This document shows, piece after piece, positions 49,692-56,644 of a stretch of DNA of 64,000 nt. Positions within the stretch are counted from its first letter, which is position 1. Every line of letters begins with the position of its first letter. A model generated the notes under the pieces. That model was not told the DNA's origin. It worked only from the letters and a program-made list of their open reading frames with translations, and searched no databases. A program made the translations under genes and the position numbers. This DNA is from Ruminococcus sp. GTDB lineage: Bacteria > Bacillota > Clostridia > Oscillospirales > Ruminococcaceae. Where the stretch lies: NCBI GenBank assembly GCA_017462565.1, contig JAFTQW010000054.1:25875-89874 (forward strand). Reading direction: 5' to 3'.

Positions 49692-50381
49692 ATGAGCATT
49701 GCCGATAAGCTTCTTGAGGAGCTTGAATGCCGTGTAGCCTTTACTATACCGATTTTCGGCGGAATCCCCGTTCCGGAATCATGCGTTATGACATGGGGCA
49801 TCATGGCGGTTATCGTTCTGGCTTCGATACTGCTGGTAAGAAAGCTTAAAACCGTTCCTACCGGAGCGCAGTGTCTGCTTGAGATCGGAATAAATTGGAT
49901 GAATAATTTCTTCCTTGAAATTCTCGGGCCAAAGGGCAAAAAATATCTGCCTATCCTCGAAACGCTTCTTATTTATATAGGAATTTCTAATATGATAGGA
50001 ATTTTCGGGCTTCGTCCGCCAACGAAAGACCTCGGAGTTACCGCAACTCTTGCAATTTTTGCAATACTGCTTATCCAGATAAGCAGCGTTAAGGAGCGTG
50101 GCGGAAAGGGCTGGCTGCATAGCTTTGTAGAGCCTATGCCGCTTCTTATTCCTATCAATATCCTTGAACTTTTTATCAAGCCGCTTTCTCTTTGTATGCG
50201 ACTTTTCGGAAACGTTCTCGGAGCTTTTGTCGTTATGGAGCTTGTAAAGCTTGTTATACCGGTAGGCATACCGCTGGTTTTAAGCTTCTATTTCGATATT
50301 TTTGACGGCGCAATTCAGGCATATGTTTTCGTTTTCCTTACTTCGCTCTTCATGGCGGAGGCTATGGAATCGGAAGATTAA
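49692..50381 (+). CDS. atpB: F-type ATP synthase subunit a
   Basis: A 229-residue membrane subunit forming the proton half-channels next to the c ring. It has five to six hydrophobic segments. The essential Arg is Arg170 in PLSLCMRLFGNVLG, and the last helices contain FDIFDGAIQAYVFVFLTSLF. GAAAGAAGGTGTTACATT precedes the ATG. It is the first gene of the operon; no atpI is present upstream. The length is at the short end of the family. Confidence 0.95.
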   Translation: MSIADKLLEELECRVAFTIPIFGGIPVPESCVMTWGIMAVIVLASILLVRKLKTVPTGAQCLLEIGINWMNNFFLEILGPKGKKYLPILETLLIYIGISNMIGIFGLRPPTKDLGVTATLAIFAILLIQISSVKERGGKGWLHSFVEPMPLLIPINILELFIKPLSLCMRLFGNVLGAFVVMELVKLVIPVGIPLVLSFYFDIFDGAIQAYVFVFLTSLFMAEAMESED

Positions 50382-50400
50382 TCTCAGGAGGTAAAATATC

Positions 50401-50622
50401 ATGGGTTCAATCGCACTCGGAGCAGCTATAGCTGTTTTAACAGGCGCAGGAGCAGGAATCGGAATCGGTCTTGCAACATCGAAAGCCGCTGAAGCGATAG
50501 CACGTCAGCCGGAAGCAAAGGGCGATATAAACAAGGCTCTTCTTCTCGGATGCGCACTTGCAGAAGCAACTGCTATCTATGGTTTCGTTATCGCTATTCT
50601 TATTATCTTTTTCCTTAAATAA
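50401..50622 (+). CDS. atpE: F-type ATP synthase subunit c, first copy
   Basis: A 73-residue hairpin of two membrane helices joined by the polar loop ARQPEAKGDI. The ion-binding carboxylate is Glu55 in ALAEATAIYG. The helix 1 position that is Gln in sodium-type c subunits (GVGQG in Ilyobacter) is Ile here (GIGIG), and the Ser after the Glu is Ala, so proton coupling is favoured. The gene is followed 19 nt later by a second copy encoding the identical protein with the same CAGGAGGTAAAATATC ribosome site. Confidence 0.96.
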   Translation: MGSIALGAAIAVLTGAGAGIGIGLATSKAAEAIARQPEAKGDINKALLLGCALAEATAIYGFVIAILIIFFLK

Positions 50623-50641
50623 ATTCAGGAGGTAAAATATC

Positions 50642-50863
50642 ATGGGTTCAATCGCACTCGGAGCAGCTATAGCCGTTTTAACAGGCGCAGGAGCAGGAAT
50701 CGGAATCGGTCTTGCAACATCGAAGGCCGCTGAAGCGATAGCACGTCAGCCGGAGGCAAAGGGCGATATAAACAAGGCTCTTCTTCTTGGATGCGCACTC
50801 GCAGAAGCAACTGCTATCTACGGTTTCGTTATCGCTATTCTTATTATCTTTTTCCTGAAGTAA
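50642..50863 (+). CDS. atpE: F-type ATP synthase subunit c, second copy
   Basis: Encodes the same 73 residues as the copy at 50401. I count eight nucleotide differences over 222 bp, all synonymous (for example GCT/GCC, AAA/AAG, TAT/TAC). The upstream spacer and Shine-Dalgarno are identical. A duplication kept by purifying selection, or refreshed by gene conversion, would explain this. Two c genes raise c-subunit output, which suits the 8-15 copies needed per ring. Mosaic repeat locus 14 starts just after it. Confidence 0.96.
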   Translation: MGSIALGAAIAVLTGAGAGIGIGLATSKAAEAIARQPEAKGDINKALLLGCALAEATAIYGFVIAILIIFFLK

Positions 50864-51120: not shown

Positions 51121-51609
51121 ATGCTGGATATTAATATCTGGAATTTTATATGGTCGGCAGTTAATATAATCATTCTTTTTATACTGCTGAAAATATTCCT
51201 TTTCAAGCCTATAAACAAAATCATGGACGAGCGTACACGTTCGATTCAGGAAGACATTGATTCCGCTAAAAAATCAAAGGAAGAGGCAGAATCCCTGAAA
51301 CAGGAGTATGCCGAGAATATAAGTGAAGCTAAGGCTGAGGCTCAGAAGATCATCATGAAGGCTCATGAGGACGCTGAAGCCGAAAAGGCTGTTATTCTGC
51401 AAAAATCTCAGGAAGAGGCAGATCAGCTTGTAAGCGACGCAAATAAGGCTATCGAAAGCAAGCGCAAAAGAGTTCTTGCTCAGGCGCAGACTCAGATTGC
51501 CGATCTTGCTATCGAAGCGGCTTCCAGGATAATCGGTGAAAATGTCGATGACGAAAAGAACCGTCGTCTTGTCGACGAGTTCCTTTCCGAAGAGGAGGGC
51601 GGCAAGTAA
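51121..51609 (+). CDS. atpF: F-type ATP synthase subunit b
   Basis: A 162-residue peripheral-stalk subunit: one N-terminal membrane helix (about 5-28; IWNFIWSAVNIIILFILLKI), the FKPINKIMDERTRSI dimer region, then a long charged coiled coil and a C-terminal delta-binding part. GGAAGGATGCAATATT precedes the ATG at 51121; the frame is open for eleven codons more, but they precede the ribosome site. Its TAA abuts the ATG of the delta/alpha gene with no gap. Confidence 0.95.
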   Translation: MLDINIWNFIWSAVNIIILFILLKIFLFKPINKIMDERTRSIQEDIDSAKKSKEEAESLKQEYAENISEAKAEAQKIIMKAHEDAEAEKAVILQKSQEEADQLVSDANKAIESKRKRVLAQAQTQIADLAIEAASRIIGENVDDEKNRRLVDEFLSEEEGGK

Positions 51610-53646
51610 ATGACAGATTTCGATAAAGAACTTCTGAAAGACCTTATCCGCCTTGACATTTCTCAGGACGATGTTTCGGAAACACGGAAAATACTTGAAT
51701 CCTGCGGAGACGTTGCGGAAACTCTTGCAAATCCTCTTGTTACTTATGACGAGAAGAAATCGATCATTACAAAGCTTTTTCCCGAAAGCCTGCACAAATT
51801 CATTATGAATACGGTAAAAGGCGGAGCTGTTGAAAGAATCGGCGAGATACTTGATGAATATACCGATTTTCTGCTCGAACAGCAGGGAAGCATAAGAGCT
51901 GTTGTGCGCTATGTGACTCCGCTTACGGAGTCACAGCAGGCAGATCTGCGCAGCTTTATCATGAATAAATTCATGAAAGAGGATGTGGCTATCGAATATC
52001 GTCACGATCCTGATATTATCGGCGGTTTTATCCTTAATGCAGGAGATATCGAATACGATAAGAGCTATCGCACAAGCCTTCGTCTGATGAAGGAAAGTCT
52101 TCACAGCAAGGCTGCGGAGTACACTGAAAATGCCGGAGAAGATAAAATCGTTTCGGGAAGCATGAGCGATATTATTTCCGTTCTCAAAACGGAAGTAAAA
52201 GATTTCGACGTTAAAACCGGAGCTACCGAAACCGGATTTATTACACGTCTCGGCGACGGAATTGCAAGAGTTCAGGGCATGAATTCGGTAATGTACGGCG
52301 AGCTTGTCGAGTTTGAAACAGGCATCCGTGGAATAGTTCAGAGTCTTGAAGAGAAAACTGCCGGAGTCGTTCTTCTCGGGGACGATCACGGTCTTACGGA
52401 AGGCTCTTCTGTTGTAAGAACCGGAAAACGTGCCGGAATCGGCGTAAGCGACGAGCTTCTCGGACGTGTTGTCGACGCTCTTGGTTCGCCTATCGACGGT
52501 CTTGGAGGCATCAGCGCCGAGGACTATTTTCCCATTGAGCGTGAAGCTCCCGGAGTTATCGAGCGTAAATCCGTAACCGTTCCTCTTCAGACAGGAATCC
52601 TTGCGATAGATTCCATGTTCCCTATCGGCAGAGGTCAGAGAGAGCTTATTATCGGCGACAGACAGACCGGAAAAACCTCTATCGCTGTCGATACCATTAT
52701 AAATCAGAAGGGTCAGGACGTTATCTGTATCTATGTTGCCATAGGACAGAAATCGTCGACTGTTGCTCAGGTCGTGAATACGCTGAAAAAGTACGGAGCT
52801 ATGGATTATTCCGTCGTTGTTTCGGCTTCTGCCAGCGATCCTGCGCCTTTTCAGTATATTGCGCCTTATTCGGGAACGGCTATAGCTGAATATTTCATGT
52901 CCAAGGGTAAGGACGTTCTTATAGTATACGACGATCTTTCAAAACACGCCGTTGCATACCGTGCAATGTCGCTGCTTCTTCACAGACCTCCCGGACGTGA
53001 AGCTTACCCCGGAGACGTTTTCTATCTCCATTCAAGACTTCTCGAACGTTCTAGCCGTCTTGATGACGAACACGGCGGCGGTTCTATTACGGCTCTTCCC
53101 GTTATCGAGACTCTTGCCGGCGATATTTCGGCTTATATTCCTACAAATGTTATCTCTATAACGGACGGACAGATATTCCTTGAAAGCGAGCTTTTCAACG
53201 CCGGTTTAAGACCTGCGGTAAACTACGGTCTTTCGGTATCCCGTGTCGGCGGCGCAGCTCAGACAAAGGCAATGAAAAAAGCCGCGGGAAATCTTCGTAT
53301 CGACCTTGCCCAATTCAAGGAAATGGAGATCTTCACTCAGTTTTCTTCCGAGCTGGATCAGGCTACGACAGATATGCTCAATCACGGTCATATGCTGACG
53401 GAACTTCTGAAACAGCCGCTTTATAATCCACGTCCGCATTATGAACAGGTCATCCTGCTTTATGCGGCTCAGCACGGTCTTTTCGACCATATTCCGGTAA
53501 AGGAACTGAAAGAATACTGCTCGGAGCTTATGAATTATATCCGCACGTACGGTCAGGATATAATCGCTGAAATAGAGGAAAATAAGGTTCTGACCGATGA
53601 TCTTGCCGAAAGAATCGAACGCATTGTAACTGCATTCGAGGAATAA
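51610..53646 (+). CDS. atpHA: ATP synthase delta-alpha fusion protein
   Basis: 678 residues in one uninterrupted frame. Residues 1 to about 170 are a complete delta subunit ([38 protein letters not shown]), which normally joins the b stalk to the top of F1. Residues about 185-678 are a complete alpha subunit: [11 protein letters not shown], Walker A GDRQTGKT (349-356, exactly 180 beyond the E. coli position 169), [20 protein letters not shown] and the Arg finger in GLSVSRVGG. The linker is about 15 polar residues. An ATG at codon 185 (52162) lacks a convincing Shine-Dalgarno. atpH and atpA are normally separate genes, so three delta domains per F1 would be expected. Confidence 0.93.
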
Positions 53647-53659
53647 GAGGTGAATTTTT

Positions 53660-54568
53660 ATGCCGAATATGAGAGAAATCCGTGAGCGTATTGCGAGTAT
53701 TCAGCAGATCCTGAAAATCACGAACGCCATGTATCTTATGTCCTCATCCAAGCTGAAAAAAGCCCGAAAGGCTCTCGATTCGACCGAGCCGTATTTCTAT
53801 AAGCTTCAGGAAACCATAAACAGCGTTCTTGAGCATACTCCCCACACACGCCAGACGTATTTCGACAGACGTGACGATATTCCCGTTGAAAAGCGAAAAA
53901 AAGGATATATCGTCATTACGGCTGATAAAGGGCTTTGCGGAAGCTATAACCACAATGTTCTTAAATTCACGGAACAGGAGCTTGAAAAAGCCCCAGATCT
54001 GTCAAACTGCTATCTGTTCGTCCTCGGACAGGTCGGCAGACAGTATTTCACAAAGCGTATCAATAATAGTCAGAAAGCTTTCGTTGACGGAGAATTTCTC
54101 TATACTACGCAGAATCCTACCGTATACAGGGCAATGGAAATAGCTCAGCTCGTTCTCGGAAAGTTCGAGAAGAAAGAGCTTGACGAGGTTTATCTTATCT
54201 ACACCGATATGGTAAATTCCAGCGTTCAGGAGAATAAAATGGTTCAGCTTCTTCCTTTCAGCCGCAGGCATTTCGGAAAATCAGCCGACGGAACAATGAA
54301 AAAGCTCCCGAAAGCTTCGTTTATTCCGTCTCCGGAAGAGGTTATGGCTGACCTTATCCCGAACTATGCAAAGGGAATTATCTACGGCGCAATGGTCGAG
54401 TCGTTCTGCTGTGAACAGCAATCGAGAATGACCGCTATGGATGCCGCTACAACAAGCGCAAAGGACATGATAAAGGAGTTGTCGCTGCTCTATAACCGTG
54501 CAAGACAGGCGGCAATAACGCAGGAAATAACCGAAGTAGTAAGCGGCGCAGGAAGTCTTGAAGAATAG
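53660..54568 (+). CDS. atpG: F-type ATP synthase subunit gamma
   Basis: A 302-residue central-shaft subunit. The N-terminal helix has REIRERIASIQQILKITNAM then YLMSSSKLKKAR, the Rossmann-like middle has IVITADKGLCGSYNHNV, and the C-terminal helix has ESFCCEQQSRMTAMDAATTS and RARQAAITQEITEVVSGA. These are the parts that rotate inside alpha3beta3. AGAGGTGAATTTTT precedes the ATG, 13 nt after the fusion gene. A mosaic repeat begins at its stop codon. Confidence 0.96.
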   Translation: MPNMREIRERIASIQQILKITNAMYLMSSSKLKKARKALDSTEPYFYKLQETINSVLEHTPHTRQTYFDRRDDIPVEKRKKGYIVITADKGLCGSYNHNVLKFTEQELEKAPDLSNCYLFVLGQVGRQYFTKRINNSQKAFVDGEFLYTTQNPTVYRAMEIAQLVLGKFEKKELDEVYLIYTDMVNSSVQENKMVQLLPFSRRHFGKSADGTMKKLPKASFIPSPEEVMADLIPNYAKGIIYGAMVESFCCEQQSRMTAMDAATTSAKDMIKELSLLYNRARQAAITQEITEVVSGAGSLEE

Positions 54569-54824: not shown

Positions 54825-56219
<1,395 letters not shown>

Positions 56220-56233
56220 CGGAGGGCTATTGT

Positions 56234-56644
56234 ATGGCTAAAACCTTTCACCTTGAAATAATCGCTACAGACCGCATCTTCTTTCAGGGAGAATGCGAGC
56301 ATCTCGTTATAAGGGCTATCGACGGTCTTATCGGAATCATGGCAGGTCATGAACCGCTGGTAACTTCTCTGCCGACAGGCGAAATGAAGTACATGGTTGA
56401 CGGCGAATGGCATTATGCCGCTATTTCCGGCGGATTTATACAGGTTATGCCGGATTCGGCTGTTATTCTTGCGGATTCATGCGAGCTTCCGGAAGAGATC
56501 GACATAAAACGTGCCGAGGAAGCAAAAGAGCGTGCCGCCGAAATGCTCCGTCAGAAACAGAGCATAAAGGAGTATTACCAGACTCAGGCTGCCCTGAACC
56601 GTGCTATAAACCGACTTAAAATTTCTCAGAAGCATTTCAAGTGA
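56234..56644 (+). CDS. atpC: F-type ATP synthase subunit epsilon
   Basis: 136 residues: an N-terminal beta sandwich (FHLEIIATDRIFFQGECEHL; GLIGIMAGHEPLVTSLPTGE) and a C-terminal helical hairpin (about 88-136; EEIDIKRAEEAKERAAEMLR, RAINRLKISQKHFK) that can inhibit rotation. It is the last gene of the operon, 14 nt after atpD, with GGAGGGCTATTGT before the ATG. A strong hairpin terminator follows. Confidence 0.95.
   Translation: MAKTFHLEIIATDRIFFQGECEHLVIRAIDGLIGIMAGHEPLVTSLPTGEMKYMVDGEWHYAAISGGFIQVMPDSAVILADSCELPEEIDIKRAEEAKERAAEMLRQKQSIKEYYQTQAALNRAINRLKISQKHFK

Follow-up and report, generated by a model that had tools for sequence, protein, structure and literature searches.

Delta and alpha subunits of F-type ATP synthase are fused in Ruminococcus, and the resulting enzyme could have more than one peripheral stalk

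The window analyzed here, a stretch of 64,000 nucleotides from a Ruminococcus sp. genome, contains an F-type ATP synthase operon with the gene order a-c-c-b-[delta-alpha]-gamma-beta-epsilon, which is otherwise ordinary and is shared by relatives. At positions 51610-53646 on the forward strand, the list of open reading frames has a single stop-free frame of 678 codons that encodes a delta subunit (OSCP) joined by a variable linker to an alpha subunit. The genes of the operon and the parts of the fused gene are given below in window coordinates.

49692..50381, + strand: atpB, subunit a, 229 aa (ORF list; order and homology in relatives)
50401..50622, + strand: atpE, subunit c, first copy, 73 aa (ORF list; tandem duplication)
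50642..50863, + strand: atpE, subunit c, second copy, identical protein (ORF list; 96% DNA identity)
51121..51609, + strand: atpF, subunit b, 162 aa counted from ATG (ORF list, sequence, relatives)
51593..51598, + strand: AGGAGG, likely ribosome site of the fusion gene, within the 3' end of b (sequence)
51610..53646, + strand: fused delta-alpha gene (atpHA), 678 aa (ORF list, Pfam, atpA model, genus conservation)
51610..51885, + strand: delta N-terminal domain, residues 1-92 (six predicted helices; helix 1 short, without the YAxA motif)
51886..52113, + strand: delta C-terminal (b-binding) domain, residues 93-168 (Pfam, alignment, dN/dS, AlphaFold2)
52114..52164, + strand: variable linker, residues 169-185 (alignment, dN/dS analysis)
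52162..52164, + strand: internal ATG at residue 185, not conserved (genus start-codon survey)
52165..52218, + strand: alpha N-terminal helix, residues 186-203, strongly conserved (alignment, dN/dS, AlphaFold2)
52219..53643, + strand: alpha barrel, nucleotide-binding and C-terminal domains, with Walker A at 52654-52677 (Pfam, atpA model, alignment)
53660..54568, + strand: atpG, subunit gamma, 302 aa (ORF list; match in relatives' operons)
54825..56219, + strand: atpD, subunit beta, 464 aa (ORF list; relatives; genome profile search)
56234..56644, + strand: atpC, subunit epsilon, 136 aa (ORF list; match in relatives' operons)

The two c-subunit genes form a 241-base tandem duplication (50379-50860) with 96% identity and identical proteins, and two c genes are also found in other operons of the genus, such as L037 and L041-L044. 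The ATG of the fusion gene adjoins the stop of b (TAAATG), and the AGGAGG motif ends 11 bases upstream. The calculated mass is 74.7 kDa for the whole chain and 53.9 kDa for the portion from residue 185 onward.

The delta part of the protein is matched by the OSCP/delta family PF00213 at residues 16-164 (profile positions 20-172 of 172) with 90 bits against a cut-off of 22.3. The alpha part has Pfam matches to the barrel (208-272), the nucleotide-binding domain (329-544) and the C-terminal domain (551-676), and its match to the atpA equivalog model TIGR00962 covers residues 185-677 with 757.8 bits against a cut-off of 484.45. Its Walker A motif, GDRQTGKT, occupies residues 349-356 and is invariant in an alignment of 39 rows; the offset of 180 residues given in the preliminary description is counted from the position of this motif in E. 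coli alpha. By family cut-off, alpha domains and Walker A the protein is an F-type alpha subunit, and by PF00213 cut-off and OSCP fold it is also a delta subunit. The preliminary claims of both subunits in one 678-residue frame and of the Walker A location are therefore borne out.

The delta part had also been called complete, which holds for the Pfam match and the six predicted helices but not for the very N-terminus, where a short stretch of dissimilar sequence stands in for the first ~19 profile positions. The helix-1 motif YAxA[L/I/V] is absent from the window protein and from the fusion rows of the genus; it is kept in 15/15 separate deltas of the genus and in 4 of 83 aligned fusions (L066, L067, L068 and L071, all from other genera). 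An early reading that helix 1 is lost completely had to be softened, as AlphaFold2 predicts a short helix at residues 3-14 or 3-15. The AlphaFold2 model based on 39 fused sequences has six helices in the N-terminal domain (the first at 3-14) and a normal C-terminal domain, with a mean pLDDT of 73.7 and low confidence at residues 173-205 and in portions of the alpha core; the model of the delta part alone (17 sequences) reaches a pLDDT of 80.8, with the first helix at 3-15. When the delta model was submitted to Foldseek, the first 48 listed matches were chains from ATP synthase entries or the engineered 9jc1, the best being the Bacillus PS3 delta (6n2y_I, E 5e-10, TM 0.62, 23% identity). Residues 1-92 thus form a delta N-terminal domain according to both AlphaFold2 and Foldseek.

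The genome that contains the window (2.63 Mb, 66 contigs, 99.99% complete) has one OSCP match and one match above the atpA cut-off, both of which are the fused frame. A separate delta or a second F-type alpha elsewhere in this genome was considered and rejected, as searches with the OSCP and atpA profiles found neither. Since these are the only such matches, the fused gene must supply both the F-type alpha and the delta. Weaker matches of the atpA model fall on the beta gene and on frames of contig C35, which from their score and pairing we read as putative V-type A and B subunits. The genome also has an rnfC match of 438.8 bits against a cut-off of 245.95.

Judged by OSCP match and frame length, the fused frame is present in 116 of 125 genomes of the genus. 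The frame has 670-699 aa in 113 of them and is shorter in three (G018, 577 aa; G033, 420 aa; G025, 545 aa), of which G033 and G025 are counted as fusions by OSCP match and length alone. Delta and alpha share one frame in 63/63 of the fusion genomes that were fetched (63 of 116). A separate delta is found in 15 of the 125 genomes (L002-L016), beside a fusion in 11 and without one in four, and five genomes, 64-82% complete, have no OSCP match. No separate delta frame was detected in 105 of the 116 fusion carriers, one of which, G002, has two fused copies. We also used the fused delta as a query for named loci and took the best 80 of 428 confirmed matches. Among these 80, the full fusion lies in one frame with alpha in 78, including the Ruminococcus flavefaciens isolates FD-1, 007c, MA2007 and ATCC 19208; the nearest named relative is a metagenome bin of R. 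flavefaciens, at 94% over the delta part. Of the other two loci, L250 is, by its length, the G036 contig a second time, and L251, with 34% delta identity, has a separate alpha frame. Two irregular cases were noted within the genus. In G036 (L085; likewise L250) the frame is open and the first usual start codon lies ~60 residues in, inside the N-terminal domain, which reflects either a changed start or an error in that single bin, and in G018 (L017) alpha is split into two frames near its end. The fusion is near genus-wide and not peculiar to one genome. The search in other Ruminococcus genomes recommended in the preliminary description has thus revealed a real fusion, and in place of the separate atpH and atpA genes in all close relatives, which it had named as a sign of error, we found fused genes.

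Selection along the gene was estimated from 200 gene pairs with alpha identity >93%; the dN/dS values are rough because synonymous differences per site are 0.48-0.65, near saturation. The values are 0.21 for delta residues 1-20, 0.18 for residues 21-92, 0.078 for the delta C-terminal domain, 0.335 for the linker, 0.046 for the alpha N-terminal helix and 0.023 for the nucleotide-binding domain. This pattern suggests a tight hold on the b-binding domain and on the alpha N-terminal helix, a loose tether between them, and purifying selection on the delta N-terminal domain (roughly 0.18-0.21). The weaker constraint on the N-terminal than on the C-terminal domain (0.18-0.21 vs 0.078) was considered as relaxed selection during decay, a reading that is unsupported because separate deltas of the genus vary in both directions (N-terminal/C-terminal 0.105/0.207 in nine sequences and 0.212/0.112 in five, without L013) and saturation is nearly reached at synonymous sites.

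The distribution of the fusion is much wider than the genus. In the union of our overlapping samples (genomes G000-G1351), at least 240 of 1,352 distinct genomes carry it, at least 124 of them outside the genus, in at least 36 family groups, all of these counts being lower bounds. In the family sample of 297 genomes, where grading rests on 72 chosen genomes, at least 34 have a fused frame no shorter than 570 aa, comprising 14 with a full OSCP match and 20 with a match to its C-terminal half; G281, G385, G407, G263 and G157 among these 20 were classed without a reading of alpha, with G157 below the cut-off, and G366 and G243 are triple fusions. A profile built from 39 rows over the delta C-terminal domain, the junction and the start of alpha (A1) was used for the higher ranks, counting frames without a stop that begin no later than profile position 50 and have 570 aa or more. 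It identified such frames in at least 49 of 295 genomes of the order, at least 38 of 341 of the class and at least 20 of 348 of the phylum, 16 of the latter outside the class.

Three grades of fusion exist: the full fusion, as in the window; a half fusion that has the delta C-terminal domain only; and a triple b-delta-alpha fusion. A domain profile found no delta N-terminal domain beside the half-fusion gene in 23/23 half loci, one of which ends at 5.5 kb, and the same profile did detect the separate deltas of L064, L065 and L115, which were absent from its building set. L064 and L065, from one small-genome genus, were set aside from this count. There (L064:2090-4463; L065:3547-6048, +) a complete delta is followed by an extra delta C-terminal domain, which is fused to alpha in L064 and is a free 109-aa gene in L065, possibly a step before fusion. 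Outside the genus, 10 of 20 half-fusion carriers and 7 of 9 full-fusion carriers in the family sample have a separate full-size delta as well. The number of residues between two marker residues has a median of 53 (48-63, 21 rows) in the full fusions of the genus and of 41 (33-56, 11 rows) in half forms, and is 43-47 (7 rows) in the full fusions of other genera. In many canonical operons a single stop is all that separates delta from alpha in a shared reading frame, so that one mutation could fuse them; by chance alone, a third of such pairs would share a frame. At L120:3741-5768 (+), alpha follows two tandem delta C-terminal domains in a frame of 675 aa, which would give six such domains per F1. 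A 758-aa frame on contig C19 of G060 (L051:1243-3483, -; OSCP E 1e-5) was rejected as spurious, as the 746-aa ORF has no ATP synthase similarity; it resembles a membrane-anchored surface protein.

Triple fusions of b, the delta C-terminal domain and alpha were identified at 11 loci (L062, L063, L252-L260), with lengths of 736-759 aa. Two of them are located as follows.

L062:4212-6422, - strand: triple fusion (PF00430, Pfam delta C-terminal domain, alpha)
L063:3500-5749, + strand: triple fusion (PF00430, Pfam delta C-terminal domain, alpha)

Their N-terminus is b-like, with a PF00430 match in 11/11 (best E 7e-11) and a profile-profile probability of 97.3 with b; the delta C-terminal domain is recognized by Pfam in L062 and L063 and by A1 in the other nine. 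The triple fusions adjoin a second, short b gene; the gamma of these loci is ~20% identical to that of the window (compared in L062 and L063), and epsilon is short or was not found. In such an enzyme every alpha would be anchored in the membrane on its own, perhaps the most peculiar arrangement seen in this work.

An alpha-only tree of 113 rows was used to trace the history of the fusions (44 separate, 44 half, 19 labeled full with L120 included, 4 full with YAxA, and 2 triple; with the genus reduced to 10 rows and fragments excluded). The window falls in a group of 53 rows with an SH-aLRT of 97, composed of 33 half, 19 full and one separate row. The four fusions with YAxA form their own group beside canonical rows, further half forms lie among canonical rows, and the half form L054 is nested in a full-fusion branch with L069, L070 and L111. 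At least seven changes between separate and fused states are required, or 12 when the presence of the N-terminal domain is counted too (L120 left out), counts that do not distinguish gain from loss. A single origin of all fusions was rejected, one clade of the 69 fused rows having a p-AU of 9.8e-7 on a quick tree with the group chosen post hoc. We read this as several fusions with a repeated later loss of the N-terminal domain; the lone separate row in the window's group, L170, may be explained by a split of a fused gene. The fusion architecture thus reaches far beyond the genus and recurs across the phylum, apparently with several origins.

The closest known system is an engineered one. Ueno et al. 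2025 (PMC12229609) took the delta of Bacillus PS3, deleted residues 2-104 and joined the remainder to alpha. The stoichiometry of a and b in this enzyme is given there as 2.2 and 1.8 times wild type and the H+/ATP ratio as 5.8 vs 3.0, with cryo-EM classes of 0, 1, 2 and 3 stalks at 15, 51, 26 and 8%. A delta C-terminal domain on each alpha suffices, according to the same paper, for the docking of a b dimer together with an a subunit; its authors conclude that it is the delta N-terminal domain which usually limits the enzyme to one stalk, and they name natural cases without this domain (Acidaminococcus fermentans, UniProt G4Q3K6 and A0A1I2C5T3) (PMC12229609). The solved chain 9jc1_I matches residues 93-672 of the window protein and is the lone delta-alpha chain among the 60 of 169 matches listed. 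To our knowledge, the engineered PS3 enzyme is the first F-type case with more than one stalk. The window shares with this form (deltaDeltaN-alpha FoF1, PDB 9jc1) the link of the delta C-terminal domain to the alpha N-terminus, the lack of a separate delta and three fused chains per F1; it differs in retaining the delta N-terminal domain, which the engineered form lacks, and its aligned junction is 11 residues longer (147 vs 136). Because a missing delta N-terminal domain also defines the multi-stalk class of Ueno et al., the window enzyme is a sister form and not a member of that class. The natural half forms resemble the window in the delta-alpha fusion and in their operon order (a-c-b-[delta-alpha]-gamma-beta-epsilon), and 33 of 44 half rows group with it on the alpha tree; unlike the window, they have no delta N-terminal domain, the loci compared being those found here.

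Other arrangements are more distant. Canonical F1Fo operons with separate atpH and atpA have the same gene order and domains as the window, with a separate delta, and their alpha is 56-64% identical to that of the window. A fusion of b to delta keeps one delta per F1. In such proteins from mycobacteria and Gordonia (PDB 7jg5_d, 9vkp_d), described in excerpts of a 2017 survey (PMC5709465), delta is also joined to a neighboring stalk subunit, but this is b and not alpha; in the window, b is a separate gene (51121-51609). The N-ATPase (alternate F1Fo) likewise has no separate delta gene, but the window has a delta and a different gene order (N-ATPase order from excerpts of PMC5709465), and its alpha scores 614.7 bits with the N-ATPase model TIGR03324 against a cut-off of 750.5. 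In the open-licence PubMed Central literature, our searches turned up neither a delta-alpha fusion with a retained N-terminal domain nor a fusion of b, delta and alpha. As far as these searches reach, the full-length form of the genus and the triple fusions are new; the truncated form has been in print since 2025.

Normally a single, axial delta N-terminal domain links the three alphas to one b dimer. The preliminary description rightly pointed out that a fused alpha would bring three delta domains to this one site. Of the four outcomes that it listed, two idle delta domains and a stalk built in a new way are both serious candidates, and the latter gains support from the engineered PS3 fusion with its up to three stalks. 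The reading to which we incline, at somewhat less than an even chance, is a natural F1Fo that offers three docking sites for b and forms more than one peripheral stalk, a function predicted from sequence and from analogy with the engineered enzyme for a fusion that is confirmed and much broader than first noted. Each F1 head would have three delta C-terminal domains, one clamped on each alpha N-terminus, and the covalent delta-alpha bond would take over the joining role of the axial N-terminal domain, so that each alpha could dock its own b dimer. One of the three copies of the retained N-terminal domain would probably fill the axial site. Each docked b dimer would bring an a subunit, giving more than one side stalk in at least part of the molecules. 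The number of peripheral stalks and a subunits bears on protons per ATP, which extra stalks would raise; the enzyme could then work at a low proton motive force, making ATP or pumping more protons per ATP.

Several observations are consistent with the multi-stalk reading. The fused gene supplies the sole delta and the sole F-type alpha of its genome, 105 of the 116 fusion genomes show no separate delta frame, and no internal start is conserved (see below). The constrained delta C-terminal domain and alpha helix flank a loose linker (0.078 and 0.046 vs 0.335), and the fusion of the PS3 delta C-terminal domain to alpha, whose solved chain matches the window protein, gives up to three stalks (PMC12229609). 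In relatives the N-terminal domain looks lost after fusion (L054; the 23 half loci, the genus of L064 aside), b too is part of the fusion at 11 loci, where each F1 would have three b chains, and one origin of all fusions is rejected. Against these stand the N-terminal domain of the window, which is kept and appears to be under purifying selection and to which the engineering paper ascribes the one-stalk limit (PMC12229609), as well as the 66% of engineered cryo-EM particles that had one stalk or none. The operons read have a single b and a single a gene, with no sign of extra a or b dosage, and the literature search yielded no natural fusion with a solved structure, a determined stoichiometry or a measured proton-to-ATP ratio. 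The separate full-size deltas outside the genus also weaken the case for a dispensable N-terminal domain, because a free delta could help in those carriers.

A close rival, which we regard as quite possible, is an enzyme of three fused chains with one stalk, in which one delta is axial and binds the stalk, the other two idle on their linkers, and the fusion is a tolerated loss of a stop codon that improves co-assembly. It directly explains why a full, constrained N-terminal domain with a six-helix OSCP-like fold is kept. The linker of the genus is longer (48-63) than that of half forms and other full fusions, so an idle domain could move away, and the single in-frame stop of many canonical operons would make such an event easy. 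However, the repeated origin of the fusion and its near-fixation in the genus exceed what would be expected of a neutral accident, the N-terminal domain seems to be repeatedly lost once delta is fused, and the b chains of the b-delta-alpha fusions would not fit a single stalk.

A gene with two products would restore a conventional enzyme: internal initiation near 52162, or a cut in the linker, would yield some or most of the alpha free of delta. We consider this improbable. The ATG at 52162, which the preliminary description proposed as the start of a shorter alpha, does exist and is common to the window and its nearest relative L172, but it has no Shine-Dalgarno-like motif upstream. Among 141 fusion frames of the genus, 99 are distinct around the junction, and only 6 of them have an ATG no more than three codons away from alpha residue 1; this candidate start is not conserved, which makes a separately started alpha unlikely. 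A start in the junction stretch with a Shine-Dalgarno-like motif occurs in 5/99, and 35/99 lack every kind of start codon over the 30 codons that run from 22 before alpha residue 1 to 7 beyond it, whereas the gene's own start is preceded by such a motif in 97/99. The linker is free to vary, with a majority-residue share of 0.37 and a distance of 54 to 69 residues from delta S152 to alpha residue 212 (97 genus genes), and is poorly predicted (pLDDT <50 at 173-205), both points in favor of this reading. Yet no conserved cleavage motif is visible in the genus alignment, and in the relative L052 the linker is almost absent, leaving little to cut. At the genome level, the gene product is a single 75-kDa polypeptide, the only delta and the only F-type alpha, and it probably persists as one polypeptide in the cell.

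A sequencing or assembly error, or a broken gene, is ruled out to near certainty by the conservation of the fused frame across the genus (116 of 125 genomes) and in 78 of the best 80 named loci, together with a dN/dS well below 1 in each region measured, and nothing in the window speaks for it, the odd single cases (G036, G018) lying elsewhere.

Extended to physiology, the multi-stalk reading can be taken further, at clearly less than an even chance. The sole F-type ATP synthase of Ruminococcus may be a natural low-gear machine, with two or three b-a stalks round one rotor and the axial delta N-terminal domain kept, unlike the normal or the engineered enzyme, and the same trend carried further may have given the membrane-anchored b-delta-alpha form. 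An rnfC gene and V-type-like subunits, as indicated in the genome of the window, are also known from anaerobes living on small ion gradients, and it is our physiological guess that a low gear would help under such conditions. Full, half and triple fusions provide a graded series on the role of the delta N-terminal domain once delta is covalently bound, and in a cultivable rumen genus, where the fusion is near genus-wide and mostly the sole F-type enzyme seen, the question of natural multi-stalk enzymes is directly testable. The fusion is also a warning for annotation, as operons seemingly without delta may hide it in a long alpha. Excerpts of the 2017 survey report Clostridia operons without delta in addition to the b-delta fusion (PMC5709465), and we infer that some of these operons may be hidden fusions.
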